From: Pedobacter sandarakinus
GTDB lineage: Bacteria; Bacteroidota; Bacteroidia; Sphingobacteriales; Sphingobacteriaceae
Direction of reading: 5' to 3'
Length of the DNA stretch: 64,000 nucleotides
Assembly (NCBI RefSeq): GCF_026240095.1
Contig: NZ_JAPIVG010000004.1
Location: forward strand, 310,001 to 374,000
Shown: positions 7,480-54,249 of the stretch, one piece after another
How positions within the stretch are numbered: position 1 is the stretch's first letter
Layout: each line of letters begins with the position of its first letter
The notes under the pieces: model-generated
What the model saw: only the letters and a program-made list of their open reading frames with translations
Told to the model about the DNA's origin: nothing
Database searches by the model: none
Program-made: the position numbers and the translations under genes

Positions 7480-7500
7480 AAATATTATTTTAAATTTAAA

Positions 7501-7534
7501 TGCCCGATTATCCAAACAATTAATCGGGCATTTT
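7501..7534 (+). terminator. Terminator after the aldo/keto reductase gene
   Basis: A 10-bp perfect stem (TGCCCGATTA with TAATCGGGCA) with a 10-nt loop is followed by TTTT. Confidence 0.85.
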
Positions 7535-7559
7535 GTATTAAAATGGATTCTAAATAACC

Positions 7560-8669: not shown

Positions 8670-8686
8670 CGCAAACAAATGTTGCA

Positions 8687-9136: not shown

Positions 9137-9146
9137 CTAAAACACC

Positions 9147-9953
9147 ATGCCAAACCATCCAATTCCAGCTACTGCACAGCATCCGGCCGATGCATTTAAT
9201 CGTCTGCTTACCGTTTTAGATACGCTGCGTACAGAATGTCCCTGGGATAAAAAACAAACCATGGAAACGCTGCGCCATTTAACGATTGAAGAGACATATG
9301 AGCTGAGCGACGCCATATTAGATGGAGATTTAGATGAAATTAAGAAAGAGTTGGGCGACGTGATGATGCATTTGGTCTTTTACTCGAAGATTGCGTCAGA
9401 AACCAATCATTTTGATATTGTAGATGTATTAAATGGCGTATGTGATAAGCTGGTGAACAGGCACCCACATATTTATGGTGATGTTGAAGTAGAAAATGAA
9501 GAGGATGTTAAACGAAACTGGGAGCAAATTAAATTAAAGGAAGGCAACAAATCGGTATTGGCTGGGGTACCGAGCTCTTTGCCAGCGCTTGTTAAGGCTG
9601 CAAGAATTCAGGAGAAAGCCCGAGGTGTGGGTTTTGATTGGGAAAACAAGAACCAGGTTTGGGAGAAAGTAGAAGAGGAACTACAAGAATTTAAAGCAGA
9701 ATTTAACGTGGCAGAGCAAACAGCAATAGATGTGGAAAAAGCTGAGGCTGAGTTTGGCGACGTATTGTTTTCGCTAATTAATTATGCCCGCTTCATCAAC
9801 ATCAACCCAGAAAATGCACTAGAGAAAACGAATAAGAAATTTATCAAGCGCTTCCAGTACCTTGAAAATAAAGCTAAAGATAATGGAAAAGCACTTGCGG
9901 AGATGACCCTCGCCGAGATGGATATCTATTGGAACGAAGCGAAGAAATTGTAA
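9147..9953 (+). CDS. mazG: Nucleoside triphosphate pyrophosphohydrolase MazG
   Basis: This 268-residue cytoplasmic enzyme hydrolyses (d)NTPs to monophosphates and pyrophosphate, cleaning the nucleotide pool and possibly lowering (p)ppGpp. Two tandem MazG domains are visible. The first carries CPWDKKQT, the E-x-x-E pair in EETYELSDAI and the E-x-x-D of KKELGDVMMHL. The second has EEELQEFKAE and EAEFGDVLFSLINYAR. This is the standard full-length form. The gene ends 10 nt before an unknown gene. Confidence 0.94.
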   Translation: MPNHPIPATAQHPADAFNRLLTVLDTLRTECPWDKKQTMETLRHLTIEETYELSDAILDGDLDEIKKELGDVMMHLVFYSKIASETNHFDIVDVLNGVCDKLVNRHPHIYGDVEVENEEDVKRNWEQIKLKEGNKSVLAGVPSSLPALVKAARIQEKARGVGFDWENKNQVWEKVEEELQEFKAEFNVAEQTAIDVEKAEAEFGDVLFSLINYARFININPENALEKTNKKFIKRFQYLENKAKDNGKALAEMTLAEMDIYWNEAKKL

Positions 9954-9963
9954 ATTAAAGCCT

Positions 9964-10362
9964 GTGGATTTAGCAAATACAAGCCCTGATAACCTCATCA
10001 ACATCGTTACATTCAATGTAATGGCCACGCAAACCGTCGATGGAGGTGTTTTACCTTGGATTAATATTGGTAGGGCAAATGAGGAAATTCTAAATTTAAT
10101 TGATGCCGATGAGCTAGTTATTTCTGAACATGAAATCACGATATCGGTAGATTACCCATTGTCTAAACCAACTGCCTTCAACTTATTTTCATCTATAGGC
10201 TTCTCGAGAAAATTGCTTCTAGTAGAAATAAGAGAACAGTTTCTTGCTTTTGCTAACGCTGATGGAGAAAATTTTGATATTGCTGCCTTAGATTTAGTGG
10301 CACTAGATGTTTATAAAAACAGTTCTGGCAAAATTGAAGTGGTACTAGATATCGATGCATAA
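9964..10362 (+). CDS. Hypothetical protein downstream of mazG
   Basis: I do not recognise this protein. The frame is 132 codons from a GTG at 9964; an internal ATG at 10021 would give 113 residues. There is no signal peptide or membrane segment, and the protein is acidic with alternating hydrophobic stretches that suggest a small alpha/beta fold. It lies 10 nt after mazG on the same strand and converges on the YchJ-like gene, so it is probably the last gene of the AI-2E/DoxX/mazG transcript. Confidence 0.65.
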   Translation: MDLANTSPDNLINIVTFNVMATQTVDGGVLPWINIGRANEEILNLIDADELVISEHEITISVDYPLSKPTAFNLFSSIGFSRKLLLVEIREQFLAFANADGENFDIAALDLVALDVYKNSSGKIEVVLDIDA

Positions 10363-10380
10363 TACTTGATCTTAAGTATT
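10361..10380. terminator. Weak hairpin between convergent genes
   Basis: A 7-bp A/T-rich stem (AATACTT with AAGTATT) overlaps the stop of the gene on the plus strand and is followed by TTTT. It may serve as a weak terminator for that gene. Confidence 0.35.
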
Positions 10381-10388
10381 TTAAGCAA

Positions 10389-10760
10389 TTAGTAGAACAC
10401 ACCATCAACATAATACCACTTTCCGTTTTCTAGTTTGAAATTAGATTTCTCATGGAGCACTTCAGTTTGCAGGGATTTGTTTAAGTAAAAAGCCTTAAAC
10501 TCAACTTGGTTATGGCTTGCGGCAACAATCTCTAACTTTAGCCACTTTGTATTCCTGGCACTTTGTAGATAAGCATCTTTACTGTTTTCTTTTCTCTTGC
10601 TTAGATGCGTGGTTTCGTATAGGTAATCTGCCTTAGCCAATACGAATGCCGAATATCGAGACCGCATTAATCCTTCTGCTGTTGGAGCAAAGGTTAATTT
10701 TAAATGATAGGGCTCGCAGCAAGCTGCATAGATGAAATTACTTCCACAAGGACAATTCAT
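10389..10760 (-). CDS. YchJ family protein with SEC-C zinc motif
   Basis: This 123-residue protein begins with a SEC-C-type zinc motif (CPCGS...CC at residues 4-16). It continues with the YchJ middle domain of NTF2-like fold, with the signature LMRSRYSAFVLAKADYLYETTH at about 31-52 and the terminal GKWYYVDG. The biological role of the family is not known. The gene is single and is divergent from truA. Confidence 0.92.
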   Translation of the reverse strand: MNCPCGSNFIYAACCEPYHLKLTFAPTAEGLMRSRYSAFVLAKADYLYETTHLSKRKENSKDAYLQSARNTKWLKLEIVAASHNQVEFKAFYLNKSLQTEVLHEKSNFKLENGKWYYVDGVFY

Positions 10761-37421: not shown

Positions 37422-38999
37422 CTAATCTCTACCTGATGGTTTTGCAACGGCGTGAGCTAATTGGTTTCGCATTTGTGCTACCCGCTCTGGCATTTCCGTT
37501 GCAAGGTTATGCAATTCGGAGGGATCATTATTAAGATTATACAGTTGGTCTGTTTGAGTTAAGCCTGTTTCGATAGCTTTATTATTAAGCCAAGGTGGCG
37601 GCACCTTACTTACAGGAGCAATATACTTCCATTCTGCAATCCTAATTGCTAATGTAAATGATTCTTGTATCATAGACTGCCTCCCAATCTTGGTGTCTCC
37701 CATGAACGCACTTAAAAGATCTTGGCTATCTAAGGCAACTTCTTTAGAGGCGAAGCTTGACCCTACAAGTTTTGCAAGAGAAGCGAAGAGGTCTACCTGG
37801 TTAATTACTGCACTGCTGTGTCCATTTTTAATCCTCAAAGGCCATCGGGTTATCGTTGGCATCCTACTTCCACCTTCGTAAGCACTATACTTCCCTCCCC
37901 TGTATATCCCAGCTGGAGTATGGTTTCCTACTAAACTAGCTGCGCCATCCTCATACCCATCATCGAGTACCGGGCCATTGTCACTTGTAAATATAACTAG
38001 CGTATTCCTATCCAACCCTTTGATACTTAAGGCGTGCATTATTTCCCCAACCATCCAATCCATCTCCACAATTGCGTCGCCACGTGGGCCCATTTTGGTG
38101 GCGCCCACAAATTTTGCATTTGGAGATCTGGGCACATGAATACTAGGCAATGCGTAGTACAGAAAAAAAGGCTGATTCTTACTGGAAGTAATAAATGCTT
38201 GAGCTTGTTTGGACAGTACATTTGCAAAATCCTCATCTTTCCAATATGCCTGATGCCCTCCACTCATATAGCCGATTCTACTGATGCCGTTTACTATTGT
38301 TCCGCTGTGCTGCGCATCGGCTTTCATTTTAAGTAAACCTGGATTTTCCGTTCCTGTTGGGTCGGAGCCAATTCTTTTATTATAGTCGACCAGGATCGGG
38401 TCTGACTGATCTAATTTTGCAACCTGATGATTTTCAACAAAAACTGTGGGTACCCGATCTGCCGTAGCAGGAATGATGAAACTGTAGTCGAAACCAATTT
38501 CGAGGGGGCCGGGTTTAATTTCACTATTCCAGTTTATCTTTCCATCTCCAAGACCCAGGTGCCATTTCCCAACCACGCCTGTTCTATAACCAGCAGCTTT
38601 GAGCATGCTTGCAATAGTTGGCTGATTTTTTGGAATGATGAGTGGTGCATCCCCAGGAAGAATGGCCGCGTTATTTCTAAAAGCATAATTCCCCGTGAGG
38701 AGCGAATATCTTGATGGCGTACAGGTTGAGGCGCTGGAATATGCATTGGTAAACAGTAGTCCTTCACTCGCCAATTTATCAATATTGGGTGTTTTCACAC
38801 CTTTGGCTCCATAGCACCCTAGATCCCCGTAACCCAAATCATCCACATAAATGAGTAAGATGTTTGGTTTTCTTGTTGTCTCTTCATCCCGGTGCACGCA
38901 AGAAACAACCAGTCCTAAAATACATGCTGAAACAAAAGTTAGACCTAATTGGGATTGCACTAAATTAATAACCTTATTCAATAAAAAAGAATGTTTCAT
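37422..38999 (-). CDS. Sulfatase (family S1), lipoprotein, last gene of the locus
   Basis: 525 residues from the ATG at 38999. The signal sequence carries a lipobox (VVSC), so it is probably a surface or periplasmic lipoprotein. The sulfatase fold begins with NILLIYVDDLGYGDLGCYG (metal aspartates). The formylglycine motif is CTPSR with Cys93, which needs maturation by a formylglycine-generating enzyme, absent from this window. GKWHLG, SDNGP and the ending LYNLNNDPSELHNLA complete the S1 pattern. It removes sulfate esters from sugars; the substrate is unknown. Confidence 0.93.
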   Translation of the reverse strand: MKHSFLLNKVINLVQSQLGLTFVSACILGLVVSCVHRDEETTRKPNILLIYVDDLGYGDLGCYGAKGVKTPNIDKLASEGLLFTNAYSSASTCTPSRYSLLTGNYAFRNNAAILPGDAPLIIPKNQPTIASMLKAAGYRTGVVGKWHLGLGDGKINWNSEIKPGPLEIGFDYSFIIPATADRVPTVFVENHQVAKLDQSDPILVDYNKRIGSDPTGTENPGLLKMKADAQHSGTIVNGISRIGYMSGGHQAYWKDEDFANVLSKQAQAFITSSKNQPFFLYYALPSIHVPRSPNAKFVGATKMGPRGDAIVEMDWMVGEIMHALSIKGLDRNTLVIFTSDNGPVLDDGYEDGAASLVGNHTPAGIYRGGKYSAYEGGSRMPTITRWPLRIKNGHSSAVINQVDLFASLAKLVGSSFASKEVALDSQDLLSAFMGDTKIGRQSMIQESFTLAIRIAEWKYIAPVSKVPPPWLNNKAIETGLTQTDQLYNLNNDPSELHNLATEMPERVAQMRNQLAHAVAKPSGRD

Positions 39000-39050
39000 C
39001 CTCATGAGCATATAAATTTATAGATGGTTAGATGACTTACCTAGAACCAA

Positions 39051-40220
39051 TTATTGGCTCGTCGACAGGCTAAATTTACCTAATAAATCAATAAAATCTG
39101 GGTAAGACAAGGGGTTTCTATAATATTCCTGTTTATCATTAAACCCAAAAGTTTTTTGCAAGAAAAGTGGGTTTAAAAACCATGAGGCTGATGTTACTTT
39201 TACATCTTTCTCGTATCCCTGTTGGAAGAGCGGATATGTTGCCCATTTAACATGATAGATTTGATAGTATCGATAAAATGTATTGAGGTAGTGCGGTACG
39301 TACCAATCCTGCGAGCTAAACATCTCTAACCATTGCTTGTAGGGTACTTTTCCATTATTCGCCAGGGCCAGCCATTCGTAAACTTTAAGGTCTGCAGGCA
39401 AATTGTTTTGCCTAATAAATGTCATTCCTTGCTTAGAGGAAGCGATAAGATCGCCGAAATGTTTGTTGTATAACCTGAACATGGAAAATTCTGGAACAAC
39501 AATGGGTTTGCTGGGCATTAATTTCCTTACAAAACTTAATGCCTGATCAATCTGAAGTGTATCTGCAATATGCAAATGCACCGCAAGTCCTTTAATGTCA
39601 GCATTTTCCTGTGCCAGTTTGATCAACCCTAACACCCCGGGTTTCTCCTGTTGGGCTTTCTCAAAAAGGGCAGGCAAGGAACCGGCATAAAAATCAGGCA
39701 TTTTTAGTTGTTGATGACCTTGATAATATGCCCTTACATGCTGTAGCAACCGATTGGTAAAAATAACTAGTGGCACATTGCCATTGCTATTAAATTGCAG
39801 GTCAGACTCCATTGTTTCAAGGTTTGGTTCGTTACCCAATTTAAAAGTTTTAATGTAAGGCGCTACCCGGTCCAAAATCTCATCCACTACGGTAAAGTAT
39901 TCCTTCTCTTGAGCGGAATCTGGTAAGGGCATTAACTGTTTTCGGGCTTTGAAGTCCCACCTAAAACCAAAAGCAATTTCATAGCCCATTTTACCCGCAT
40001 CTATAACTTTTTGCAATGCGGTGTCCGTTTTTGGGTGGAGTTTGCCTTCGACATAATCCAAAATACGTGGCGTAGTCCTAATGAGTTTAACATTAAGTTT
40101 TTTTACGTAGTTCAGGTCGATGTTCTCGGGATTGTGGTTAAAATTTAAGCCCAGTTGTTGCGCACTAACCTTCGAAAGAAACAAGGTTGTAAGTAACAAT
40201 ACTATCACTACTTTCTTCAT
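39051..40220 (-). CDS. Exported TIM-barrel protein, candidate new clan-A-like glycoside hydrolase (paralogue A)
   Basis: 389 residues with a signal peptide ending SKVSAQ. I cannot assign a named family. Motifs typical of retaining clan GH-A barrels are visible: LGNEPNLE with E131 as likely acid/base, and VVPEFSMF with E244 as likely nucleophile. It is homologous over its length to the protein at 47136-48359 (GFRWDF/NLKFDF, GNEP, VHLH/DIHSH, EFS). The start overlaps the GH43 stop by four bases, so the two are coupled. It may cleave the locus glycan. Confidence 0.75.
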   Translation of the reverse strand: MKKVVIVLLLTTLFLSKVSAQQLGLNFNHNPENIDLNYVKKLNVKLIRTTPRILDYVEGKLHPKTDTALQKVIDAGKMGYEIAFGFRWDFKARKQLMPLPDSAQEKEYFTVVDEILDRVAPYIKTFKLGNEPNLETMESDLQFNSNGNVPLVIFTNRLLQHVRAYYQGHQQLKMPDFYAGSLPALFEKAQQEKPGVLGLIKLAQENADIKGLAVHLHIADTLQIDQALSFVRKLMPSKPIVVPEFSMFRLYNKHFGDLIASSKQGMTFIRQNNLPADLKVYEWLALANNGKVPYKQWLEMFSSQDWYVPHYLNTFYRYYQIYHVKWATYPLFQQGYEKDVKVTSASWFLNPLFLQKTFGFNDKQEYYRNPLSYPDFIDLLGKFSLSTSQ

Positions 40221-41395
40221 TTGATCGATTTTAGGTCGCCGTAAAAGATCCTGGCTCGTTCTGCATCAGGCATTAGCTTATTATTAACCCATTTCATCGG
40301 CACTACTGCCGGCCTGCATGTTACGTCAAATTTGGTTCCCATAATCCCCCTTGGATTGAAAAATGTGGTCGACCACCAATTATTTCTTGCATCCTTAAAT
40401 AAGTTATTATGTCCACCTTCCAGAATTGCCGGATATCGCGGTCCGTATGGGCCGTATATATTTGTAGATTCTGCCACAACAACATCGTAGCTATATAACG
40501 CTTTATCTTTTTTCTCATCTCGGAGATAAGTAAACGTTCCATCTGGTTTTTTTATCGACCAAACAGTCTGCAGAAGTTGGTATTTTCCGTTGTATTTATC
40601 TAGCCAAACCCCCTCTATATAAGGTTCGGTTTCGTAGGGTGTTTCCCTAAAATTTCGAAATGGCTCTGCAATGTTGCTAAGGTCTGCATTCATTTTTGCA
40701 ATGTAGTGGTTATGCCCTACCAAATAAACCTCGCCTGTGGTGTCTTCAAAAATTCCCAGATCTATGTTTGGAAAAATCGCTTTATCCTGGTTGCCTTTAA
40801 TATTTCGGTATGGCCCTTCGGGTTTTCCCGACACGCTTTCGAGTACGAAAGACCCATTTGCACCATTTAGACAGGCCGCAAGTAACCATTTTTTCTGACT
40901 TTTGATGTAATGAAGTTCTGGTGCCCAAACCGCCCTATAAATTGAATCCAATGGATCTCCATTTAATGATTTTGATCCGGGTTTAATTGGTTTTCCTTTC
41001 TTTTGCCACGGGGCGGCATCCTTATCGAAGGTCCAGATTGCACCCAAAGCTTCCCATGATTTCATATCTTTAGATCGCCAGAGATACAACCCATCGTTGT
41101 AGTCCCAACAGTGGATCTGACCAGGAAAAATGCGCCCTGGTGAAGCCGTGGTTCCCGTTAAGTAGAAGTAGTTATCTGGACCTTTTGTTACGTAGGTATC
41201 CCGCATCCAAATGTCCAATATGGGTTTAACAGACGATGGCATTTTAAGCGTACTGTTTCCAACTGGTGCAACCGGATTGCTAAAGGCTGGTTTTGATGGT
41301 CTTTCTTTAATTGTTTGGGCGTGCAAAAAAAAATGTTGCCCCAAAAGCAGCAGTAGCACTTTGGCTACTCTACTGCAAAATACATTTACCGACAT
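40217..41395 (-). CDS. Glycoside hydrolase family 43
   Basis: 392-residue five-bladed propeller glycosidase with an export signal ending FLHAQ. The general base is D66 in IWMRDTYV. The WAPELHYI motif is diagnostic of GH43. LGIFEDTTGEVYLVGHN carries the pKa-modulating aspartate, and YIEGVWLDKYNGKYQLL the acid glutamate. GH43 enzymes remove arabinose, xylose or galactose units by inversion. The subfamily is not readable by eye. The gene is coupled to the next one by an ATGA overlap. Confidence 0.92.
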   Translation of the reverse strand: MSVNVFCSRVAKVLLLLLGQHFFLHAQTIKERPSKPAFSNPVAPVGNSTLKMPSSVKPILDIWMRDTYVTKGPDNYFYLTGTTASPGRIFPGQIHCWDYNDGLYLWRSKDMKSWEALGAIWTFDKDAAPWQKKGKPIKPGSKSLNGDPLDSIYRAVWAPELHYIKSQKKWLLAACLNGANGSFVLESVSGKPEGPYRNIKGNQDKAIFPNIDLGIFEDTTGEVYLVGHNHYIAKMNADLSNIAEPFRNFRETPYETEPYIEGVWLDKYNGKYQLLQTVWSIKKPDGTFTYLRDEKKDKALYSYDVVVAESTNIYGPYGPRYPAILEGGHNNLFKDARNNWWSTTFFNPRGIMGTKFDVTCRPAVVPMKWVNNKLMPDAERARIFYGDLKSIK

Positions 41396-41408
41396 CTAAT
41401 CTCTGTTT

Positions 41409-42473
41409 CTATTTATTTTTTACTTCATTTATTCTTTTTATAGTTTCGACTTCTGATGCACTAAATGGCGTTCCATCTTTCCTTAAGATATCATGAAACC
41501 AAAGTTCTGGCTCTCTACCATCTGGCATTGGTGTATCCCAAGCGTAAATGGTATTGGTTTTACCTGAAACAAATCCCCAGTTTATAGCACCAATTTTTTC
41601 TTCTTTTAAGAGGGGCATAATGTTCGAAAAAAGACTGCCATTTCTCCTCGCCATATACTCCGAGCAGATGATTGGTCTGTCATACTTTTTCAGTGCTGCT
41701 ATCTCGTTTTTATGGTTATCAGTGTAGGCATAGTTATGATAGGTAATGATATCAGAATTTTCTAGCTGAAACTGATTGAGTACTTTAAATTTTTCTCCAT
41801 GGTTCCAGATGGCAGAAGTTATTGGCTGCTGGGTATCAATTTGTTTCGCCCATTGAAATACTGCCTTTAAAAGTGGAAGACTTTTATCGAAATTTTTGTT
41901 ATTCCCTGGTTCGTTATATAAATCCCATGCTAAAATGCGATTGTCATTTTTAAAGGTTTCCATGACATCTTTTACATAGCTCTCCAAAACATTCAATAAC
42001 TCGGGTTCGCTATAAAGCTTTGTTCCCGGATCTCTTACCCAGCCACTATTATGGACACCTGGTTTTGGTTCAGGCTGATTTCCTGCTGCATAGCTATCAT
42101 TCCAGCAATCGTCGAAAAATACAAAAATGGTTTTTATTCCATGTTTTTGAGAAATGGATAGGTATTGATCTAACCTTTTCTTGAAACCCGCTTTGTCTGT
42201 AGTCCATAACAGGTGGTGCAGATAGACTCTCATGGTATTAAATCCAAGGTTGGAGGCCCATCCCAATTCTCTATCGATGGTTTGTGGATCAAAAGTTGCC
42301 GATTGAAACATCTCCAATTGGTTAATTGCGGTACTAGGCTGAAAATTACAGCCCCTTGGCCAAGCTTGTTTCTTATACCATTCATTGGCCTTTGCGGCAG
42401 ACCATTTCTGATTTTGTCCATTTACAGAAGCTGCTAGGAATAACATCAAAACAATCAGGATATTTCTTTTCAT
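41409..42473 (-). CDS. GH5-like clan-A glycoside hydrolase
   Basis: 354 residues with a signal peptide ending ASVNGQ. The TIM barrel has the retaining-clan acid/base E188 in WDLYNEPGN and the nucleophile E272 in IICSEYMARR. The RVYLHHLLW block and HNYAY match GH5-like cellulase-fold proteins often annotated as 1,4-beta-xylanase in Bacteroidota. The exact family (GH5 or a related clan-A group) needs a profile search. It lies between SusD and GH43 with short gaps. Confidence 0.85.
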   Translation of the reverse strand: MKRNILIVLMLFLAASVNGQNQKWSAAKANEWYKKQAWPRGCNFQPSTAINQLEMFQSATFDPQTIDRELGWASNLGFNTMRVYLHHLLWTTDKAGFKKRLDQYLSISQKHGIKTIFVFFDDCWNDSYAAGNQPEPKPGVHNSGWVRDPGTKLYSEPELLNVLESYVKDVMETFKNDNRILAWDLYNEPGNNKNFDKSLPLLKAVFQWAKQIDTQQPITSAIWNHGEKFKVLNQFQLENSDIITYHNYAYTDNHKNEIAALKKYDRPIICSEYMARRNGSLFSNIMPLLKEEKIGAINWGFVSGKTNTIYAWDTPMPDGREPELWFHDILRKDGTPFSASEVETIKRINEVKNK

Positions 42474-42533
42474 ATTTTATGGATTTTAGATTAAAAATTG
42501 GGAATGGCAGATACCATTCCCATTGTGAGCATA

Positions 42534-44021
42534 TTAATAACCCGGGTTTTGAACGATCAAATTATTGGCTTGTATTTCAGATTGTGGAATGGGGAACAAT
42601 AGCTTATTGTTGGTCGCTAAATTTGCACTGATGCCCCTTGAGATTGCTGCAGACAAGAATGTTCCCTGCCTGATTAAATCTTCACGGCGCTTACCCTCAC
42701 TAATGAATTCCCATCCACGCTCTCTAAATATGGCATCTCTAAAAGCATCTTTGGTTGGGGCATCTGTTAAGGTAAGGTTATTAATACCGGCTCTAGCCCG
42801 CACTTGGTTTATCAACGAAAAACATTCCGTGCTTGGCACTGCCGAAAGCTCATTAAGTGCCTCAGCCCTGGCCATTAAAATATCGGCATACCTAAGCAAT
42901 GGCACATCGTTCCCACTGTTATTTCCAATGGTTGCGTTATCAAAATATTTGAAACTTCGGGCATTGTCTCCTGTAAGGATATTGATGGTAGCGTTGCTTG
43001 AGTTAATGTAGCTGGTACAAATTAATGAACGTCTCCTATCGTTGGCTGCCATGCTGTTTACAAACGCTGTACGTAAACGATACTGGGTGGCGAAGTTAGA
43101 CATGGTAGCCTGGTAAATAAATTCGGGAACTTGTGGTGTGCTCTTAAAAGCCGGAGGAAGTGCACCTGCCATAAACCAATTGCCGAAATCAACCTCATTT
43201 CTACAAGGAAGTACCAACATCATTTCCTTATTATTAATGCCTTCATTTTCTACCTTAAACAGATCTTTAAACTGCAACTGAGTTGTAGAATAGTAGTTAA
43301 AATCGATAACCGCTTTTGCTGCATCTGCTGCCTTTTGCCACTGTTTGGTGTTTAGAAAGAACTTTGCAAGTATACCATTTGCATTTCCTTTATTAAACCT
43401 ACCGTAAGCTTCCTCCCTTCCGGGGTCTGGAAGATCTGCAATCGATTGAGAGATTTCCCCTTCGATAAAAGCTTTCATCTCATCATCAGTTGCCCTTGCT
43501 AAATTAGCATCCTGTGAAGTGCTTGTTCTTAATGGAACTGGCCCAAACCAGTTGTAAAGTATTGCGTAAGCATGGGCCCTAAGCACTCTTGCCTCTGCCC
43601 TGAACAGGCGCTTCCTGGCATCTGAAGTGTTAACGTTATCAATATTTTCAATTACCCCGTTGGCATCTCTAATACACCTGTAGTTTGGTGCCCAAACATC
43701 GGCCTGAAAGGTAAGCAAATCAGTATTCCATGTAAAATTGATAATTGGAAGCAATTGTGCATTCTCGGCACCTCCAGAATTGAAGGCCATATCTGTACAA
43801 ACCTCTGAATCGTTAATTACAAACCTGGAATTCTGCTGTGTTTGTTGCTCGGCATATGCAGAAAAGAGCAGCGAGCGGATGCCGTTTTCTGAAGTGAGTA
43901 CATTGCTGGGTGCAAATTCTGAATTCGGAGACACCTCCAGCATCTTTTTACAAGAGGTCTGTAACATAAGCAGACCAATCAGGCACATATATATCGAAAT
44001 ATTTTTCATGTTATTTTTCAT
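42534..44021 (-). CDS. SusD/RagB family outer-membrane lipoprotein
   Basis: 495-residue glycan-binding partner of SusC. The lipobox LQTSCKK gives lipidation and surface exposure. The TPR-like N-terminal part includes the SusD pattern EARVLRAHAYAILYNWFGPVPL near residues 140-165. The C-terminal part ends with the family block REDLIRQGTF and LLFPIPQSEIQANN. Its start lies five bases after the SusC stop. Together they form a lid-and-barrel importer. Confidence 0.95.
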   Translation of the reverse strand: MKNNMKNISIYMCLIGLLMLQTSCKKMLEVSPNSEFAPSNVLTSENGIRSLLFSAYAEQQTQQNSRFVINDSEVCTDMAFNSGGAENAQLLPIINFTWNTDLLTFQADVWAPNYRCIRDANGVIENIDNVNTSDARKRLFRAEARVLRAHAYAILYNWFGPVPLRTSTSQDANLARATDDEMKAFIEGEISQSIADLPDPGREEAYGRFNKGNANGILAKFFLNTKQWQKAADAAKAVIDFNYYSTTQLQFKDLFKVENEGINNKEMMLVLPCRNEVDFGNWFMAGALPPAFKSTPQVPEFIYQATMSNFATQYRLRTAFVNSMAANDRRRSLICTSYINSSNATINILTGDNARSFKYFDNATIGNNSGNDVPLLRYADILMARAEALNELSAVPSTECFSLINQVRARAGINNLTLTDAPTKDAFRDAIFRERGWEFISEGKRREDLIRQGTFLSAAISRGISANLATNNKLLFPIPQSEIQANNLIVQNPGY

Positions 44022-44026
44022 TTTAA

Positions 44027-47000
44027 TTAAAGCTGAAGATTAATACCACAGGTGAAGGTTCGGGTTAAAGGATAGGAATTGTAGTCTACCCTTAAAATAT
44101 CATCACCAATAGCATTCACCGCCGGATCGGCGCCTTTGTAATTTGTAATCGTGTACAAGTTTTGTCCGTTTACAAAGATTACCGCATTGCTGATAAATTT
44201 ATTCTTCGGAAGCGGCAGCTTATAGGATAGTCTTACCGCCTGGAGCCTTAAATATGAAGCATCTTCCACAGTTTTGTTATTTACCTGCCTTTGCCCCTGC
44301 ACGTCGCCTGGAATAAAAGATGGGAATTCATTGCTTGGATTAGTGGCAGTCCATCTATTCAGGTAGAGATCAGCCAACTTATTTCTTCTAAAATCTACAG
44401 GATAATAAGAATCTACCAAACTACTATTAAGCATTTTGGCGCCATGAGAGCCTTCTAAGAAAACTGCCAGCGATAGTTCTTTGTAACTCACATTAGTATT
44501 AAATCCATAATAAAAATCTGGAAGTGAGTTGCCTAAAATTACGCGATCTTGAGGATTGATGAGTCTGTTTCCATCGATGTCTCTGTATTTAAAATCCCCA
44601 GGCCTAACACCAGGCTGAGCAGTAGAAAAATCATCACCAGTTTGCCAAACACCATCTATAATGTATCCATAAAATGAACCCATCGATTCGCCTGGCCTTA
44701 GAATGCTATACTCTCCGATACTACCGGGGCCGGTACCTATAAACTGGGTTACCCTACCAAGACTAAGGATTTTATTTTTTAGCGTGGTGAGGTTGAATCC
44801 GGCATCCCACTTTACCTTATCTCCATTCAATATTGTTCCATTCAGTGAAAATTCCATACCAGAATTCTTCATGCTTCCTACATTCTCTGTTCTTGCTCCA
44901 AAGCCAGTACTTAATGGTTGAGGAACACTATATAGTAAATTAGATGTTTTTCGCTGATAGTATTCTACTGTTCCGGAAATTCTTGATTTAAAAAAGGCAA
45001 AATCTAATCCAAAATCGAGCTGACGTGCTGATTCCCATTGCAACGCAGGATTTGGACTACGTGAAGGGGCAAGGGAGCTTGCTCTTTGACCATTGAACAC
45101 GGCATCTCTTCCTCCAGCGTAGGTAGTGAAATACAGGTAATTAACGTTAGGCTGATTGCCGATGGCACCATAGCTGGCCCTAAGTTTTAAATCATCGATA
45201 AAGGTTGCGGCCTTAAGGAAGTTTTCTTCTTTTACTTTCCAAGCCAACGCTGCAGAAGGAAAGAAGCCAAACCTATTCTCTGGCCCAAACCTGGCAGAAC
45301 CATCTGCTCTGAAAGATGCGGTAAAAAGGTATTTGCCCATGAAAGAATAATTAACCCGTCCAAGGTAAGACAATAGTATATTTTCCTGAACACCGTTAGA
45401 TACGCCATTGAGGGTAGAGACTCCTGATCCTAATGCATAGTAGGTAAGGTCGGGAAGGGCAAAAGACCTGGCGTTGGCGACCAAAGAACTAGAGGTGTAC
45501 CGTTCATATGTAGCTCCGCCGACAGCAGAAATGCGGTGGTGTCCGAATTCTTCGTTATAATTAAGTGTGCCCTCGAAAAGGTAATATCCACGCTTTCCGT
45601 CCCTTACATCAGCATAGCCTCCATAAGATGCGCCAGTTAAGGTCGACGGATCAATCCAGAATGATCTCATGGTATTGTTGAAATCAGCGCCCAATTTACC
45701 TTTGATGGAAAACGTTGGTGCAATAAAATATTCTCCATAGATATTTCCAAAAGTACGGTAGGTATCTCCTATAGAATACTGCCCATTTATTACAGCCAAT
45801 GGATTATCCATCGGTGCCATAAGTGGCGAGCGGTAATAACTGCCATCTGGATTATATGCTGGTGAAGTAGGATCGTAATTTTGGGCCATATACAAAGCGC
45901 TGGCATTATCATTTAACCCCGTTCCGTTAGCATTATAATTATCCCTGTTGTAAGATGTGGTAAGGCTTAGCCCGACATTGTATTTCGATGCTATTCCGTT
46001 TTCGATATTTACCTTGGCATTGTAGCGCTTAGTGGCTGAATTGAGCATAATACCATCTTGACCAAAATACCCTGCCGAGATGTAAAACTTGGTGTTGTTA
46101 CCACCGCCGCTGAAAGAAATATCATGCGACTGTATCGGGGCATTTCGCAATAGTAAGCCTTGCCAGTCGGTATTGTAATTTGTTCCGGTAACAAGCGGAT
46201 AATTTGCGGTGTTTAGGTTATTTTCGTTTATAATACCATTGATTGTTCTGGTGTATTCCTCGCCGTTCATAAAGCGCTGGGTATTGGCAACCCTTTGTTG
46301 TCCGTAGCTGCCATTATAAGATACATTGATCTTGCCCTCCTTGCCTTTTTTTGTTGTGATTAAAACCACACCATTGGCACCCCTTGAACCATAGATTGCT
46401 GTAGCAGATGCATCTTTAAGAATCTCGATGGATGCAATGTCTGATGGATTGAGTGCATTGAGCGGAGATCTGTTGTTTGGGTTGCTGGTTGCGCCACCTG
46501 TACTGGCCGCACCAATTGCAGCCGCATCATTGATCGGCATTCCACCCACTACATAAAGAGGCGCATTGTTGCCCGTAATTGAAGTTATACCACGTATCTG
46601 CACACTCATAGCGGCGCCAGGTTCTCCACTTTTTTGGTAGATCTGCACACCAGGGGTACGACCCTGCAGTGATTGCTGGAGGTTTATGTTGGCACCCTTG
46701 GTAAGATCTTCAGCTTTTATTGAAGCCACAGAACCTGTAAGATCGCTTTTCCTTACTGTTCCATACCCAATAACTACGACTTCATTCAAAGTCTTATCTT
46801 CCGATTCGAGCACTACATTCACCTGCGTTCGGCCATTAACGTCTACTTCTTTCGTTGCATAGCCCAAGAAGCTGAATATAAGCGTCTCGTTGGTACCGTT
46901 TAGGCCGATCGTATAATTTCCTTTATTATCAGAAACCGCACCTCCGGCCGAATTTTTTACCTTCACACTTACCCCAGGCAATCCTCCCCCACTTCGATCG

Positions 47001-47116
47001 GTAATTTTGCCACTAACTGCTGTCTTTTGCGCATAGAGCCCAAAGGATAAGACAATCAGGAAAAACATGAGCAGAAACTTGAGACTGCTAATGAATTGCG
47101 TATTGATTTTGTTCAT
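44027..47116 (-). CDS. SusC/RagA family TonB-linked outer-membrane transporter
   Basis: 1029 residues from the ATG at 47116; the longer frame from 47164 adds a stretch before the signal peptide. After the signal (SFGLYAQ) comes a CarboxypepD_reg domain (VSGKITDRSGGGLPGVSVKVKN), the SusC-typical VVIGYGTVRKSDLTGSV, the plug domain with GANGVVLITTKKG, then the 22-strand barrel. It imports oligosaccharides with SusD, powered by TonB-ExbBD (not in this window). Confidence 0.96.
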   Translation of the reverse strand: MNKINTQFISSLKFLLMFFLIVLSFGLYAQKTAVSGKITDRSGGGLPGVSVKVKNSAGGAVSDNKGNYTIGLNGTNETLIFSFLGYATKEVDVNGRTQVNVVLESEDKTLNEVVVIGYGTVRKSDLTGSVASIKAEDLTKGANINLQQSLQGRTPGVQIYQKSGEPGAAMSVQIRGITSITGNNAPLYVVGGMPINDAAAIGAASTGGATSNPNNRSPLNALNPSDIASIEILKDASATAIYGSRGANGVVLITTKKGKEGKINVSYNGSYGQQRVANTQRFMNGEEYTRTINGIINENNLNTANYPLVTGTNYNTDWQGLLLRNAPIQSHDISFSGGGNNTKFYISAGYFGQDGIMLNSATKRYNAKVNIENGIASKYNVGLSLTTSYNRDNYNANGTGLNDNASALYMAQNYDPTSPAYNPDGSYYRSPLMAPMDNPLAVINGQYSIGDTYRTFGNIYGEYFIAPTFSIKGKLGADFNNTMRSFWIDPSTLTGASYGGYADVRDGKRGYYLFEGTLNYNEEFGHHRISAVGGATYERYTSSSLVANARSFALPDLTYYALGSGVSTLNGVSNGVQENILLSYLGRVNYSFMGKYLFTASFRADGSARFGPENRFGFFPSAALAWKVKEENFLKAATFIDDLKLRASYGAIGNQPNVNYLYFTTYAGGRDAVFNGQRASSLAPSRSPNPALQWESARQLDFGLDFAFFKSRISGTVEYYQRKTSNLLYSVPQPLSTGFGARTENVGSMKNSGMEFSLNGTILNGDKVKWDAGFNLTTLKNKILSLGRVTQFIGTGPGSIGEYSILRPGESMGSFYGYIIDGVWQTGDDFSTAQPGVRPGDFKYRDIDGNRLINPQDRVILGNSLPDFYYGFNTNVSYKELSLAVFLEGSHGAKMLNSSLVDSYYPVDFRRNKLADLYLNRWTATNPSNEFPSFIPGDVQGQRQVNNKTVEDASYLRLQAVRLSYKLPLPKNKFISNAVIFVNGQNLYTITNYKGADPAVNAIGDDILRVDYNSYPLTRTFTCGINLQL

Positions 47117-47135
47117 ATTATATATATTTATTTGG

Positions 47136-48359
47136 TTAGTTACAAGGATTTTCATCAACAGCAATCTTTAGAAAGAGATCTAAAAAGCTGTAGGATTTTT
47201 GGCTTCGTCCATTCAGCATTTCAACCGATCTATTCATAAAAAGCCCATTCAATACCCACGGATCTGTTGTTGCGGTGAAGTCGGTATTTAATGGATAGGA
47301 CTGCCTGAGGGCATAAAATGAAAGGTAAACGTTTCCGGCATTTTTCAGGATGTTATAGGCGGCACACAAATAGTTCTTCCTGCTTTCTATATAAGGTGAA
47401 TTTCTACAGAAGGCATACCATTCCTCCGCTGGTCGAGGATTTTTAAGCGCATAATCAATATACTGGAAATTGGTAGTAACATTAGCGGGAGGTGTAAAAA
47501 TTCGGTCTGTAGCACTTGCATTTGCTGCTGTGATGAATGCAGAAGAAATTGCTGCATTGTTATTACTTTTCCAGTAAGGCATAAGTGAAAATTCTGTTAC
47601 CAGGATTTTCTGATTATCTCTGATCTTGCTTTTGGCGAAATTTATTGCTGATGTTAAAAGCTCAACCGCAGCATGGTGACTGTGGATGTCTACCCCAGCA
47701 AGGTATGGAGTAGCCTTAACAAAAGCCAAAAGATTATTATGTCCGGGATCGTTTTGCCTGTTTGCCTCATCCAACCTATCCAAGGCGCCTAAAAACATTG
47801 GCTTTTTGATGTTATTTAGAGTGAAATAATTATTTGCCCTCTCACAAGCGGCACGATAAAAACTGTTTAATGGTTCATTCCAACTCGCCTGATCTGCCTC
47901 AATAAAAGGTTCGTTACCAACAACTAAGACATCAGTGTTTGCCATTACTTTAGCAAGCAATGGCTGGATAAAATTTAAGTAATTGTTCCATTCAGTGCTA
48001 TTAACTGCGGGAAAACCATTCTGCTTGAAGTCAAATTTTAGATTTAGTACTGTTTTGTATCCTTTGGATTTTAATAAATTATAAGCAGCAATTTTAGGAT
48101 CGATATTTAAAGATCCGGCTTTATACACATCAATAACCTCAACGAAACACCTTACCCATTTGGTCTTGCTATCGGCTAAGTCATTGTAATCGGTTACATC
48201 AACCTGTTCATTTAGGTTAATTCCCATTTTATAACTGTAATCAATGGGCTGTTGTGGCAGATCCGGTTCCTTAATCGTGATTAGGGCATTTTTGTCCTTA
48301 CAGGAGAGTCCAAACATCAGGATTACCAATAAAGGAAATAAGTTTAGTAACTTGATCAT
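47136..48359 (-). CDS. TIM-barrel lipoprotein, candidate new clan-A-like glycoside hydrolase (paralogue B)
   Basis: 407 residues with lipobox FGLSC. It is a full-length homologue of the protein at 39051-40220: MGINLN near the start, NLKFDFK, VVGNEPFIE with E150, DIHSHH, and LVTEFSLM with E256. The spacing of the two glutamates (106 residues here, 113 in paralogue A) is similar. It could be a surface glycosidase or a glycan-binding protein derived from one. It lies directly upstream of SusC, where surface glycan-binding lipoproteins often occur. Confidence 0.75.
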   Translation of the reverse strand: MIKLLNLFPLLVILMFGLSCKDKNALITIKEPDLPQQPIDYSYKMGINLNEQVDVTDYNDLADSKTKWVRCFVEVIDVYKAGSLNIDPKIAAYNLLKSKGYKTVLNLKFDFKQNGFPAVNSTEWNNYLNFIQPLLAKVMANTDVLVVGNEPFIEADQASWNEPLNSFYRAACERANNYFTLNNIKKPMFLGALDRLDEANRQNDPGHNNLLAFVKATPYLAGVDIHSHHAAVELLTSAINFAKSKIRDNQKILVTEFSLMPYWKSNNNAAISSAFITAANASATDRIFTPPANVTTNFQYIDYALKNPRPAEEWYAFCRNSPYIESRKNYLCAAYNILKNAGNVYLSFYALRQSYPLNTDFTATTDPWVLNGLFMNRSVEMLNGRSQKSYSFLDLFLKIAVDENPCN

Positions 48360-48371
48360 AATATATAGTGG

Positions 48372-50081
48372 TTAGTTGTCATGGTTATTTTTCACTGCTT
48401 GTGGCTTAGGGAATACCTTGTATTCTTCTGCCAAATTGGTCCATGCCGCTGTCATCTGGCGGACTTTTTCAGGATATTCGGCAGATAGGTTATGGATTTC
48501 TGACCTGTCTGTATGCAAATCATAAAGCTCCCATTGTTCTTTAGCTGTTGTTCTGACAATTTTCCAATCACCAACCCTTAGCGCCGCTGCGCCATTGTGC
48601 TCCCAAAAGAGCGTTCTATCTGAAGCCTTGGTTGCAGTGCCCTCAAAAACTGGGAAAAGGCTTTTCCCTGGGTTTTTGATTATTGTATTGCCTTCAAAAG
48701 TAGATGGGTATTTCGCCCCAGACACCTGTAAGCAGGTTGCCATAAGGTCGATAACATGGGCAGGTGCATTGCTGATTTGCCCAGCCTTTATCTCTTCGGG
48801 CCAATAAGCAATGAATGGTGTTGCAATACCCCCTTCGTGTTCCTTAGACTTCCAATACCTAAATGGCGTACATGATACGTTTGCCCACTCCTGACCTATA
48901 CCCGCATGCGTAGTCTGGGGCCCAGGAAGAACCTTTTTATCGACAGGAAAAACAATATTCTCTCCAGATCTTGTTGTTCCAGACCTATCGTAACCGGGGC
49001 CGAAAACTTCCGGGCGCTCTGGACTCGCACCATTATCAGAAAGAAACATTATGAGGGTATTATCCAGCTCCCCATTAGCTCTTAATTGCTTGATCAGCTT
49101 ACCTACATTCTGATCTAAGCAGTCTACCATTGCTGCGTGAACAGCCATGGCTCTTGAGTCCCAGTTTTTGTCTGGGTTGCTTGCCCAATCTTTTTCCGGA
49201 TACATGAACTGCGAAAGCCCCTCCGTTTTAGGATCAAGCAATCCCATTTTTATCATTCTTTTATAGCGCTGTTCTCTAGTATATTGCCATCCCTTTTTAT
49301 AAGTATTTTCATACTTCTTTATATCAGATTCTAGCGCTTGCAAAGGCCAGTGGGGTGCTGTAAATGCCACGTAAAGGAAAAATGGATTGGCCTTGTTAGA
49401 GAAACCATTGATGTAATTAGCTGTTGAGTCTCCAATAACATTGGTGTAATAGAAGTTTTTGGGCACTTCTTTTACTGGCTTGCTGCCGTTAACAAGTGAA
49501 AACGGATCAAAGTAATCTACGACACCCCAGATATTTCCATAGAATTTATCGAAGCCCTTGTGTGTAGGATAAGAAAGCGTATCAGCAAAATCCTTGTCCT
49601 GGATTTTATGGTCGAGCCAAAGCAGTTGCTGTTGCTTATCGGGGAAAGCATTGGTTTCTGAAACATGCCATTTGCCAACCATACCGGTTTGGTAACCATC
49701 TTGTTTAAGCACCTGTGCAATGGTTACTGCATTGGCAGATAAGCTCCCCGTGTACCCTGGCTGGTTTTGATTCGTTGTCATATTGCCGATACCCGCCTGA
49801 TGAGGATACAGGCCAGTTAGTAATGATGCCCTGGTAGGGCAGCAGCGGCTGGCGTTATAGAAACTTGTCATTTTGATACCGCCTTTTGCCAACCAATCCA
49901 GATTTGGAGTACTGATTTCTCCACCGTAACAACCCAAGTCGCTATACCCAAGGTCATCTGCCAAGATGATGATGATATTTGGCTTTTTTACTTTTGATGG
50001 ATTTTTCTGAGCGAAGACAGTCGTGGTAATAAATAAGGGTACTAAAAAAAATGTCGCTTGTTTGAGTTGTGAAATTCTCAT
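48372..50081 (-). CDS. Arylsulfatase-like sulfatase (family S1), first gene of the locus
   Basis: 569 residues with a signal peptide ending TTVFAQ and no lipobox. The formylglycine motif is CCPTR at 80-84, with C80 the modified residue; the metal aspartates lie in IIILADDLGYSDLGCYGG. Other S1 blocks are GKWHVS, HWPLQA and SDNGAS. The long middle and the motif type resemble arylsulfatases of the S1_4-like branch and differ from the sulfatase at the other end. It starts the reverse operon, 166 nt from the sensor gene. Confidence 0.93.
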   Translation of the reverse strand: MRISQLKQATFFLVPLFITTTVFAQKNPSKVKKPNIIIILADDLGYSDLGCYGGEISTPNLDWLAKGGIKMTSFYNASRCCPTRASLLTGLYPHQAGIGNMTTNQNQPGYTGSLSANAVTIAQVLKQDGYQTGMVGKWHVSETNAFPDKQQQLLWLDHKIQDKDFADTLSYPTHKGFDKFYGNIWGVVDYFDPFSLVNGSKPVKEVPKNFYYTNVIGDSTANYINGFSNKANPFFLYVAFTAPHWPLQALESDIKKYENTYKKGWQYTREQRYKRMIKMGLLDPKTEGLSQFMYPEKDWASNPDKNWDSRAMAVHAAMVDCLDQNVGKLIKQLRANGELDNTLIMFLSDNGASPERPEVFGPGYDRSGTTRSGENIVFPVDKKVLPGPQTTHAGIGQEWANVSCTPFRYWKSKEHEGGIATPFIAYWPEEIKAGQISNAPAHVIDLMATCLQVSGAKYPSTFEGNTIIKNPGKSLFPVFEGTATKASDRTLFWEHNGAAALRVGDWKIVRTTAKEQWELYDLHTDRSEIHNLSAEYPEKVRQMTAAWTNLAEEYKVFPKPQAVKNNHDN

Positions 50082-50247
50082 AAGATATTCATATTTGGTT
50101 GAGCAATATTAAATCAATCCCACATTTCTCATTAGCACCTACGTTTAATTAATAGGGATTTTTGTTCAAAACACGCCTTTCAGTGTAAGCTTAACCACGA
50201 ATGCGATTTTTATTTAACAAATTAGCTAACCAAATAACTTTCGATTG

Positions 50248-53200
50248 ATGAGAATACCATATATCCTTCTTCTCTTTATTATCTTGATTCCTGGGTACGT
50301 AGTTGCTCAAGACATCAGGTTTAGGAAGATTACATCTAACCAAGGACTTTCACATAATACGGTATATGCTATTGCGCAAGATAAAAGCGGAATGATGTGG
50401 TTTGCAACCCGGGAAGGATTAAATCGATATGATAGTTACAATATTAAAACCTATTATGTAAAAGATTCGAGACCAGGTGGCTCTGCCAATAGGATTAGCG
50501 CTCTTCTCAGCCTGGATGGATCCATCTATGCAGGTACAGATGATGGACTTTACTATTATGATGTTAAGACTGATGAACTCCAGAAATCTGTGGTGTTGCC
50601 CTCATCACAATCTGTATTGTGCCTAGCATCGCAGGGGAAGTCGATATTTGTAGGAACAACAGATGGGTTGTACGCAATTAACCGAGGGCATGCAAAGCGA
50701 ATAAGTAAGAAAGGAGCCGCTGTAACAGCGATGTGTCCGATTGGAAAAGGACAGTTTCTTTTAGCGATAAATGAGGCAATTGAGATTATTGATTCCGAGG
50801 GGAACACCATCAAAACCTTTGGGGAATCTACCCTCGAAAGGATGGCTGGGGCCGCTGTGTTTAATATTACAAAAGATTTTGAAGGTAAGATTTGGTTAGC
50901 AACCAATAGGGGATTATTTAACTTCAACCAGGAAAGCGAAACTTTAACGAAAATTTATTTTGCTGGCTCTTCCTCTCCTGAAAGCAGCACTGTAAGGTCT
51001 GTTGCAAGAGATGGAAAAGATCATCTTTTTATTGGCACAGAAGAAGGACTTTTTGTTTACAACTTAAAGTCGGGTGAAGTAAAAAATTATCAACAATCTT
51101 TTGGCTTCAATCCCAAGAAACTTAACGATAATGCCATCTATTCTACCTTTGTTGCTAATGATGGTTCAGTTTGGATTGGCACGTACTTCGGGGGAATAAA
51201 TTATATTCCTTCAGAATCGAACGGATTTACAAGTGTGATGCCATCTGATAATGCAAGCAGCCTAAATGGCAAAGCCATCAGCCAAATGATGGAGGATAAA
51301 CAAGGGCGAATTTGGATTGGAAGTGAAGATGGAGGCATTGCTATTTTAAATAAGACGAGAGATAAATTTACGCCAATTAACAAAGATACACGCCCGTTTC
51401 ATTTAACCACGAACAATGTGCATGCCATACACGATGATGGGTATGGAAATATTTGGGTGGGCACATTTTTAGGGGGGCTTCATCAATTTAATACTAAAGC
51501 GAATACGACTACCATCTATCGCACAAGTAAAAATAGTTTAAATGCGCTCTCTAATGATCAGGTATATTCCATTTACAGAGATCGCAAAGGCAAGTTGTGG
51601 ATCGGAACCCAAAATGGATTAAACCTTTTTAATTATAGCAACAAAAAATTCAGCTTGTTTAAACCAGGCATTCTGGGCAACAAGTTCATTTACGATATTA
51701 TCGAAGATTCTGTTGGCAACCTTTGGTTTTGTACACGTCAAAACGGCATCTTCAGGTACGACCCAAGTAACGATAAATTGATTAATTATCGGGCTAATGG
51801 CCCAAATCCTGTGTTATTAAGCAACCAGGTAATAAGTGTTTACATCGACAGCAGAAAGAATATGTGGTTTGGAACATTAGATGGTGGCGTAAGTTATTAT
51901 AATCCAACAAAAAATATCTTCAAAAACCTGACGATAAAAAATGGGCTGGCTAATAACAATGTATATGGAATTTTAGAAGATAGTGATGGGAATATGTGGT
52001 TAACCACAAATCGCGGAATTTCGAAACTCGACATCAAGACAAAAAAATTCATTAATTATGATAGTAAGGTTGGCTTGCCATCAAACCAGTTCAACTTTAG
52101 GTCATATTTAAAAGATAGCAAAGGTCTGTTGTACTTTGGTAGTATTAATGGGTTGTGCATCTTCGACCCATCTGCTATTGGGAGAGCGCAAACTCAATTT
52201 CCTCTGGTTTTTACCGATTTCCAACTATTTAATAAGAGTATTGCACCTTCTACTTCATCAGTGTTGAGTAAACAAATAGATGCTGTTGATAAAATTTCTC
52301 TCGATTATGACCAAAACGTATTCACCATCAGCTATGCTGCCATTAATTATACCAATCCAGGAAGCACAAATTATAAGTATTTTTTGAAGGGTTTCGAAAG
52401 TAAATGGAATAATGTCGGCAATAAAATCAGTGTTACTTATACCAACCTTTCCCCAGGCGATTATGAATTCCATGTTAGGGCAATAGATGGCTCTGGCCGA
52501 CTATCTAGTGCGGAACGAACGTTGAAAATAACTGTTGCTCCTCCATTTTACCTCACCAAAGTCGCATATCTATTTTATTTTGTTTTGATCATTTTAATAA
52601 TATTGATATATACCCGCTTTGTTAAATTTCTCCAGCATAAAAAGTTAGAGGTAAAGCTCGAACGGATAGAGAAGGAAAAAATAAAAGAACTTACGCAACA
52701 CAGGCTAAACTTTTTCACTTTCATATCGCACGAATTTAAAACGCCATTAACCCTAATCCTCGCCTCTATCGATAAATTTTTGGATGGAAAAAGTTTGGAG
52801 TTTAAAAAGAGCAGTGAGTTAGTAAATATTAAAAGCAATGCTTCTATCTTGTTTAAGCTGATACAGCAGCTAATGGAATTTAGGAAAATTGAAACCGACC
52901 ATGATGCGATCAATTTATCGAGCGCAGATTTGGTTAAGTTCGTTGGTAATTGCGTATCAAACTTCGACACCATTACGCTAAAAAAAGGCATTTCGCTAGC
53001 ATTTAAATCGTCACAACCAAACCTGCAATGTTTTTTTGATCAGGATAAAACAGAAAAAATATTATATAATTTGCTATCAAATGCGGTAAAAAATACAACA
53101 GATGGCAGTATCGAAGTGGTGTTGGATATTTTGGATCGAAACAATGATCAGAAGGCAATAAACATTATGATAAAAGATACGGGAAATGGTATGTCGCCAG

Positions 53201-54249
53201 ACGACCTTGAAAATATTTTTAATCCCTTCTTTAAATCGCCCAAACATAAAGTAAACCAACAAGATAGCGGTTTAGGACTGGCCTTGGTTAATAGTCTGGT
53301 GAAGTATTTAGATGGAGAAATTAAGATAGAGAGCCAGCTAAAGGTGGGCACCATCGTGAGGTTGAGCATTCCGGTCTCCATACATCTAGAAGAAATTGGC
53401 GATCACAGATTGCACAAGCTAAAAATTGACACCTATGCGGCGAGAACTCAAATAGATACAACTCAACCGCCATTGATAAATGCCAAAAACAGGTTCAAGC
53501 TACTTATAGTTGAGGATAATAGGGAGTTGCTCACTTTCCTGTCTAACCATTTCTCTAGAGCATATGAAGTAATAACTGCAACTAACGGAGATATTGCATT
53601 GAGAAAAATAGGCAAGACCCCTCCAGATGTTATTGTTAGTGATGTTAAAATGCCAAAAATGGATGGCATTGAGCTATGTAGAAAACTAAAAACAAATAAG
53701 CAATACAACTACATCCCTTTCATACTGCTATCTGATAGCAATGGGGAAGCAACCAGGCTAGATGGACTCGATGTTGGGGCCGACGCGTACATTGCCAAGC
53801 CCTTTAATCTTAAAGAATTTGAGTTATTAATCTCAAATATGATTAATTCCAGGGTTAAACTGCGAGAGCATGTCATCGGTTCTGCAACACTCATTTCTAA
53901 TAATTTACCAAGCAACAACAAGGATCAGGAATTTCTCTCAAACATCAGCCGGGTGCTGGAAAAAGGCTTCGGCAATCCAACATTAAGTGTCGAAGACATT
54001 GCTGCCGAATTGAACACCAGCCGAACATCATTGCACCTGAACCTAAAGAGAGTTATGGACAAGAATGCGTCTGAACTTTTGAATGAATATCGACTGAAAA
54101 AAGCTGCAATTATGCTTGGAAATAACATGCCGATAAACGAAGTTGCCTTTTATTGCGGTTACGCTGATCCCAATTATTTTAGCCGTGTATTCAAGAAGTT
54201 CTACGGAGATACACCGCAAAACTTTAAGAGAAAAATCCATACCGAATAA
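50248..54249 (+). CDS. Hybrid two-component system sensor-regulator (HTCS)
   Basis: 1333 residues from the ATG at 50248 (TTG 50245 also in frame). A signal peptide (ending VVAQ) leads a periplasmic sensor of two-component propeller repeats (NTVYAIAQDKSGMMWFATREGL and similar), a Y_Y_Y domain (about 670-770), one membrane helix, then histidine kinase with FISHEFKTPL and H828, an HATPase domain, a receiver with D1132 in VIVSDVKMPKMDG, and a C-terminal AraC-type HTH. Known HTCSs bind an oligosaccharide and activate the adjacent locus, here divergent. Confidence 0.96.
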   Translation: MRIPYILLLFIILIPGYVVAQDIRFRKITSNQGLSHNTVYAIAQDKSGMMWFATREGLNRYDSYNIKTYYVKDSRPGGSANRISALLSLDGSIYAGTDDGLYYYDVKTDELQKSVVLPSSQSVLCLASQGKSIFVGTTDGLYAINRGHAKRISKKGAAVTAMCPIGKGQFLLAINEAIEIIDSEGNTIKTFGESTLERMAGAAVFNITKDFEGKIWLATNRGLFNFNQESETLTKIYFAGSSSPESSTVRSVARDGKDHLFIGTEEGLFVYNLKSGEVKNYQQSFGFNPKKLNDNAIYSTFVANDGSVWIGTYFGGINYIPSESNGFTSVMPSDNASSLNGKAISQMMEDKQGRIWIGSEDGGIAILNKTRDKFTPINKDTRPFHLTTNNVHAIHDDGYGNIWVGTFLGGLHQFNTKANTTTIYRTSKNSLNALSNDQVYSIYRDRKGKLWIGTQNGLNLFNYSNKKFSLFKPGILGNKFIYDIIEDSVGNLWFCTRQNGIFRYDPSNDKLINYRANGPNPVLLSNQVISVYIDSRKNMWFGTLDGGVSYYNPTKNIFKNLTIKNGLANNNVYGILEDSDGNMWLTTNRGISKLDIKTKKFINYDSKVGLPSNQFNFRSYLKDSKGLLYFGSINGLCIFDPSAIGRAQTQFPLVFTDFQLFNKSIAPSTSSVLSKQIDAVDKISLDYDQNVFTISYAAINYTNPGSTNYKYFLKGFESKWNNVGNKISVTYTNLSPGDYEFHVRAIDGSGRLSSAERTLKITVAPPFYLTKVAYLFYFVLIILIILIYTRFVKFLQHKKLEVKLERIEKEKIKELTQHRLNFFTFISHEFKTPLTLILASIDKFLDGKSLEFKKSSELVNIKSNASILFKLIQQLMEFRKIETDHDAINLSSADLVKFVGNCVSNFDTITLKKGISLAFKSSQPNLQCFFDQDKTEKILYNLLSNAVKNTTDGSIEVVLDILDRNNDQKAINIMIKDTGNGMSPDDLENIFNPFFKSPKHKVNQQDSGLGLALVNSLVKYLDGEIKIESQLKVGTIVRLSIPVSIHLEEIGDHRLHKLKIDTYAARTQIDTTQPPLINAKNRFKLLIVEDNRELLTFLSNHFSRAYEVITATNGDIALRKIGKTPPDVIVSDVKMPKMDGIELCRKLKTNKQYNYIPFILLSDSNGEATRLDGLDVGADAYIAKPFNLKEFELLISNMINSRVKLREHVIGSATLISNNLPSNNKDQEFLSNISRVLEKGFGNPTLSVEDIAAELNTSRTSLHLNLKRVMDKNASELLNEYRLKKAAIMLGNNMPINEVAFYCGYADPNYFSRVFKKFYGDTPQNFKRKIHTE

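Follow-up and report, generated by a model that had tools for sequence, protein, structure and literature searches.

Two paralogous putative clan GH-A glycoside hydrolases in a sulfatase-containing polysaccharide utilization locus of Pedobacter sandarakinus

The question raised by this locus is whether two of the proteins that it encodes, here called GHX1 and GHX2, constitute a glycoside hydrolase family of their own, and on which glycan such a family might act. Hydrolases of clan GH-A are familiar constituents of polysaccharide utilization loci; the GHX sequence family and its two-paralogue arrangement appear to be undescribed in Pfam, NCBIfam, the PDB sequences and the literature that were searched, the literature searches having returned no description of a locus of this type. 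We consider it about three times as probable as not (~0.75) that GHX1 and GHX2 belong to a single undescribed, retaining clan GH-A family, as its two anciently diverged paralogous subfamilies, and are encoded in a locus for a sulfated galactose-containing glycan.

The window, i.e. the whole stretch of 64,000 nucleotides that was analysed, contains in gene order an S1_4-type sulfatase, GHX2, SusC, SusD, a GH5-like protein, a GH43 protein, GHX1 and an S1_15-type sulfatase, with a hybrid two-component regulator encoded divergently from the locus (Table 1). The SusC/SusD pair, the adjacent carbohydrate-active enzymes and the regulator together make this a polysaccharide utilization locus of the Bacteroidota type.

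Table 1. Features of the locus and their positions in the window
Feature	Position	Strand	Description
S1_15-type sulfatase	37422..39011	(-)	CTPSR motif; nearest solved relative S1_15A (9BAS)
GHX1	39051..40220	(-)	389 aa; putative glycoside hydrolase of clan GH-A, secreted (SPI-type); E131 predicted as acid/base and E244 as nucleophile, with N130, R48, H215 and H217 in support
GH43 protein	40217..41395	(-)	PF04616, 58.9 bits; best PDB match E=6.6e-4
GH5/GH2-like clan-A protein	41409..42473	(-)	In part of the loci
SusD-like lipoprotein	42534..44021	(-)	PF07980, PF14322
SusC-like TonB-dependent transporter	44027..47164	(-)	ORF and orthologues; listed start codon uncertain, overlaps the end of GHX2
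GHX2	47136..48359	(-)	407 aa; putative glycoside hydrolase of clan GH-A, lipoprotein (C20); E150 predicted as acid/base and E256 as nucleophile, with N149, R70, H226 and H228 in support
S1_4-type sulfatase	48372..50081	(-)	CCPTR motif; nearest solved relative 7ALL
Hybrid two-component regulator	50245..54249	(+)	Reg_prop, Y_Y_Y, HisKA, receiver, AraC

A first-pass annotation had proposed that GHX1 and GHX2 are homologous along their length, and both open reading frames are indeed found at the positions it gave, on the minus strand. The homology proved to be far beyond chance by three methods. BLASTP aligned the two proteins over 353 columns with 23% identity (73.6 bits, E=1e-18), and identity stays at ~22-25% across almost their entire length. 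The Smith-Waterman score was 200, against 36.5 +/- 4.8 in 500 shuffles (z=34), and comparison of the two orthologue alignments with hhalign gave a probability of 99.5% (E=4e-23, 325 columns), which rose to 99.8-99.9% with more sequences. The motifs that had been named align as claimed, namely xGxNxN, GNEP (E131/E150), HxH (H215, H217/H226, H228) and EFS (E244/E256). Furthermore, of 43 columns that show no variation inside either subfamily, the two subfamilies agree in 25, while shuffling gave an expectation of 3.2 and a maximum of 14 in 10,000 shuffles. These 25 residues, both glutamates among them, are invariant in all 26 GHX proteins (15 loci).

The same annotation had found that neither protein fits a family it could name, and our searches bear this out, there being no strong match to an existing glycoside hydrolase family in Pfam, NCBIfam or the PDB sequences. 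No relevant Pfam model was matched at E<=10 by GHX1, GHX2 or any of 16 members, and neither of the two matched an NCBIfam model. A profile of the 16 members found no PDB sequence at E<=10, and single-sequence PDB searches with GHX1 and GHX2 returned chance-level matches or none. In particular, the GH5 profile PF00150 matched 0 of the 16 members at E<=10, and the GHX proteins showed no match to GH39 (PF01229), GH53 (PF07745) or GH128 (PF11790).

Alternatively, GHX1 and GHX2 might belong remotely to a clan GH-A family that already exists (GH5 in a divergent form, or a recent family outside Pfam and NCBIfam, would be likeliest), a reading that a predicted clan-A fold (see below) and some weak profile similarity would favour. 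For calibration, alignments of GH5, GH39, GH53 and GH128 were built from related genomes, and all pairs were compared using hhalign in local mode. The GHX group reached 63-67% against GH5 (E ~5e-5) over strands b2-b5, with GHX2 alone at 16%, and 50% against GH39 in a 76-column piece in the b7 region; the values were 1-26% against GH53 and at most 19% against GH128. The GH5 profile, on the other hand, scored GH39 at 95.6% and GH53 at 98.4%, both of which are established as separate families. Since GH5 scores these two higher, the GHX group is more distant from GH5 than they are. This ordering, the lack of any PF00150 or other glycoside hydrolase match in the 16 members, and the failure of the profile to find a PDB sequence, a search whose reach at the sequence level extends to families with solved structures, make membership in an existing family unlikely, though a recent one with neither a Pfam model nor a solved structure could include them, and we favour a separate GHX family. 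Weak as they are, the alignments keep the active sites in register, E131 falling on the acid/base glutamate of the GH5 NEP motif and E244 on the nucleophile glutamate of the GH39 TEW motif. The GH5-like protein of the locus itself was considered as a close third paralogue and rejected, the profile-profile probability being ~1%.

AlphaFold models of both proteins are (beta/alpha)8 barrels as in clan GH-A. They were computed from shallow alignments, with 16 sequences for GHX1 (pLDDT 89.4, pTM 0.87) and 15 for GHX2 (pLDDT 79.3, pTM 0.77), the latter model being poor in its C-terminal part, mainly past residue 340 and including the surroundings of strand 8. As assigned by DSSP, E131 of the GHX1 model lies just past b4 (123-127) and E244 within b7 (240-246); correspondingly, E150 of the GHX2 model lies just past b4 (144-147) and E256 within b7 (251-258). 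The predicted structures thus have the clan's Asn-Glu after strand 4 (N130-E131/N149-E150) and its glutamate on strand 7, besides an invariant strand-2 Arg and, on strand 6, the two histidines of HxH. The earlier suggestion that the two glutamates occupy the acid/base and nucleophile positions of clan-A enzymes is upheld by both models and by the profile register, and in each model the two are predicted on the strands that line the clan-A pocket. GH5 and other families of the clan (GH1, GH10, GH39) share the barrel, the Asn-Glu after strand 4, the strand-7 Glu and the strand-2 Arg. Strand 6 of GH5 carries HxY, whereas that of the GHX proteins has HxH.

Searches with the models gave clan-A structural matches with Z of 18-21 overall. 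The best match of GHX1 was the GH164 beta-mannosidase Bs164 (6T7G; Z 21.2, rmsd 3.5, 278 aligned residues, 12% identity), followed by GH5_18 and GH1 at ~20, a lead of less than one Z unit that amounts to a tie; GHX2 matched GH1 and GH10 best (Z ~19). As the Z values are near-tied, with the best rows within 1-2 units, we name no family from these neighbours (GH164, GH5_18, GH1, GH10). Bs164 has no sequence match to the GHX proteins and is an enzyme of ~650 aa, unlike GHX1 and GHX2 with their ~390-410 aa.

Relatives amounted to 26 proteins (15 GHX1 and 11 GHX2) in 15 distinct loci, eight loci coming from the genome scan. In the window's family, the Sphingobacteriaceae, 9 of 400 genomes were positive, its own genome included, as were 6 of 346 in that of Arachidicoccus; a further 394 genomes sampled from the phylum yielded no GHX relatives, and 59 other genomes of the window's genus no GHX2. 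A distribution this rare and patchy points to horizontal transfer or to losses on several occasions. In the tree, GHX1 and GHX2 are divided by a single long branch with full support (100/100), which implies a split older than the spread of the locus.

GHX1 adjoins a GH43 gene in 15/15 loci, and GHX2, where seen (11/15), lies directly upstream of susC. It was missing from that place in L006, L056, L057 and L007; the last is cut by a contig end, and absence there comes from a genome-wide search. GHX2 is therefore not indispensable. The signal sequences agree with what had been proposed, in that GHX2 has a lipobox cysteine (C20, LSC-KDKN) and GHX1 an ordinary signal peptide (VSA-QQ) as well as a 4-base overlap with the GH43 gene. 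An N-terminal cysteine consistent with a lipobox occurs in all 11 GHX2 proteins, and GHX2 may for this reason be placed at the cell surface; GHX1 would then work in the periplasm, a division that is read from the signal sequences. Non-catalytic binding proteins are common beside susC/susD. It could accordingly be asked whether GHX2, a lipoprotein adjoining these genes and unseen in four loci, is an enzyme-derived surface glycan-binding protein, with GHX1 as the enzyme. Both glutamates, the preceding Asn, the strand-2 Arg and both His are invariant in 11/11 GHX2, however, when their loss would otherwise be expected, and we regard a purely binding role as improbable.

As to the substrate, the protein at 37422-39011 is an S1_15-type sulfatase by its full-length similarity to characterised S1_15 enzymes and its C/S-x-P-S-R motif. 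It scored 636.9 bits against S1_15A (9BAS) and 517-524 bits against 6S20 and 7OZE. S1_15A is reported to act in the lambda-carrageenan pathway as a galactose-6-sulfate 6-O-sulfohydrolase (PMC12549532). The nearest solved relative of the S1_4-type protein is 7ALL, which is BT4683, a 3S-Gal sulfatase (PMC10154620, PMC10154612); the sulfate position is less certain here, because the 6S-Gal enzyme BT3487 also falls in S1_4. With 6-sulfo- and 3-sulfo-galactose as the targets of the nearest solved sulfatases, the most probable class of substrate is a sulfated galactan, and the locus probably digests a sulfated, galactose-containing polysaccharide. Aldose epimerase genes, present in L003 and in fused form in L056, were counted with this evidence. 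The identity of the sugar is not settled by the GH43 and GH5-like genes.

Both S1_15 and S1_4 include members acting on other galacto-configured substrates (GalNAc), and the enzymes of these subfamilies in Bacteroides thetaiotaomicron act on mucin and chondroitin sulfates (PMC10154612), so that the locus might target a GalNAc-containing or host-type glycan (mucin, chondroitin-like) instead. We think this doubtful, though the most credible of the alternatives weighed here, given that the nearest solved S1_15 enzyme is the galactose-6-sulfate one and that nothing mucin- or chondroitin-specific was seen, the conserved genes being only the sulfatases, GH43, GH5-like, GHX1 and GHX2. The mucin sulfatases BT4683 (S1_4) and BT1624 (S1_15) of B. 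thetaiotaomicron belong to the same subfamilies as those of the present locus, but their glycoside hydrolase partners differ. Similarly, the lambda-carrageenan pathway of Pseudoalteromonas comprises GH150, GH110, S1_15A/B and S1_8 (PMC12549532). The present locus shares with it an S1_15 sulfatase nearest to the G6S-specific S1_15A, whereas no GH150, GH110 or S1_8 partner was found, and GHX1/GHX2, GH43, GH5-like and S1_4 proteins stand in their place.

With a sulfated galactose-containing glycan as the preferred substrate, the following pathway may be proposed. The lipoprotein GHX2 would probably make the first cut at the cell surface beside SusC/SusD, which would take up the pieces, and the secreted GHX1, working in the periplasm with the GH43 protein, the GH5-like protein and the S1_15 6-sulfatase, would finish them, the sulfatases of the locus taking part; endo and exo roles of the two are guesses. 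By analogy with the clan, hydrolysis would follow a retaining double displacement in which E131/E150 serve as acid/base and E244/E256 as nucleophile; clan membership implies that the configuration is retained by way of a covalent intermediate. On balance we lean slightly towards the whole of this picture, in which a new family with surface and periplasmic subfamilies depolymerises a sulfated galactose-rich polysaccharide on which Sphingobacteriaceae and Chitinophagaceae draw. If true, a glycoside hydrolase family would be added whose two paralogues act one after the other in the same pathway, and a complete, conserved locus for such a glycan would be marked out. Several of the carriers are, by name, soil or compost isolates, where this substrate is not obvious, and the 8-9 genes of the locus would lend themselves to direct tests in the search for the polysaccharide.

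Gene fusions in L056 are direct signs of functional coupling. A single ORF of 905 aa (7980-10697, minus strand) joins GHX1 to the S1_15 sulfatase, and the adjoining ORF (5813-7936) joins the GH5-like protein to an aldose 1-epimerase. In L003 (11249-16339), GHX1 is separated from the S1_15 sulfatase by an extra sulfatase, an aldose epimerase, a second GH43 and a sulfatase-modifying-factor-type protein. No gene accompanies GHX1 more constantly than that of the GH43 protein, which is nonetheless distant from every solved GH43 structure. The GH5/GH2-like protein (41409-42473) likewise has no close solved structure (best PDB E=5.8e-5), and L005 (14454-15467) and L008 (14144-15259) encode a protein that is 25% identical to it and is without a Pfam match.
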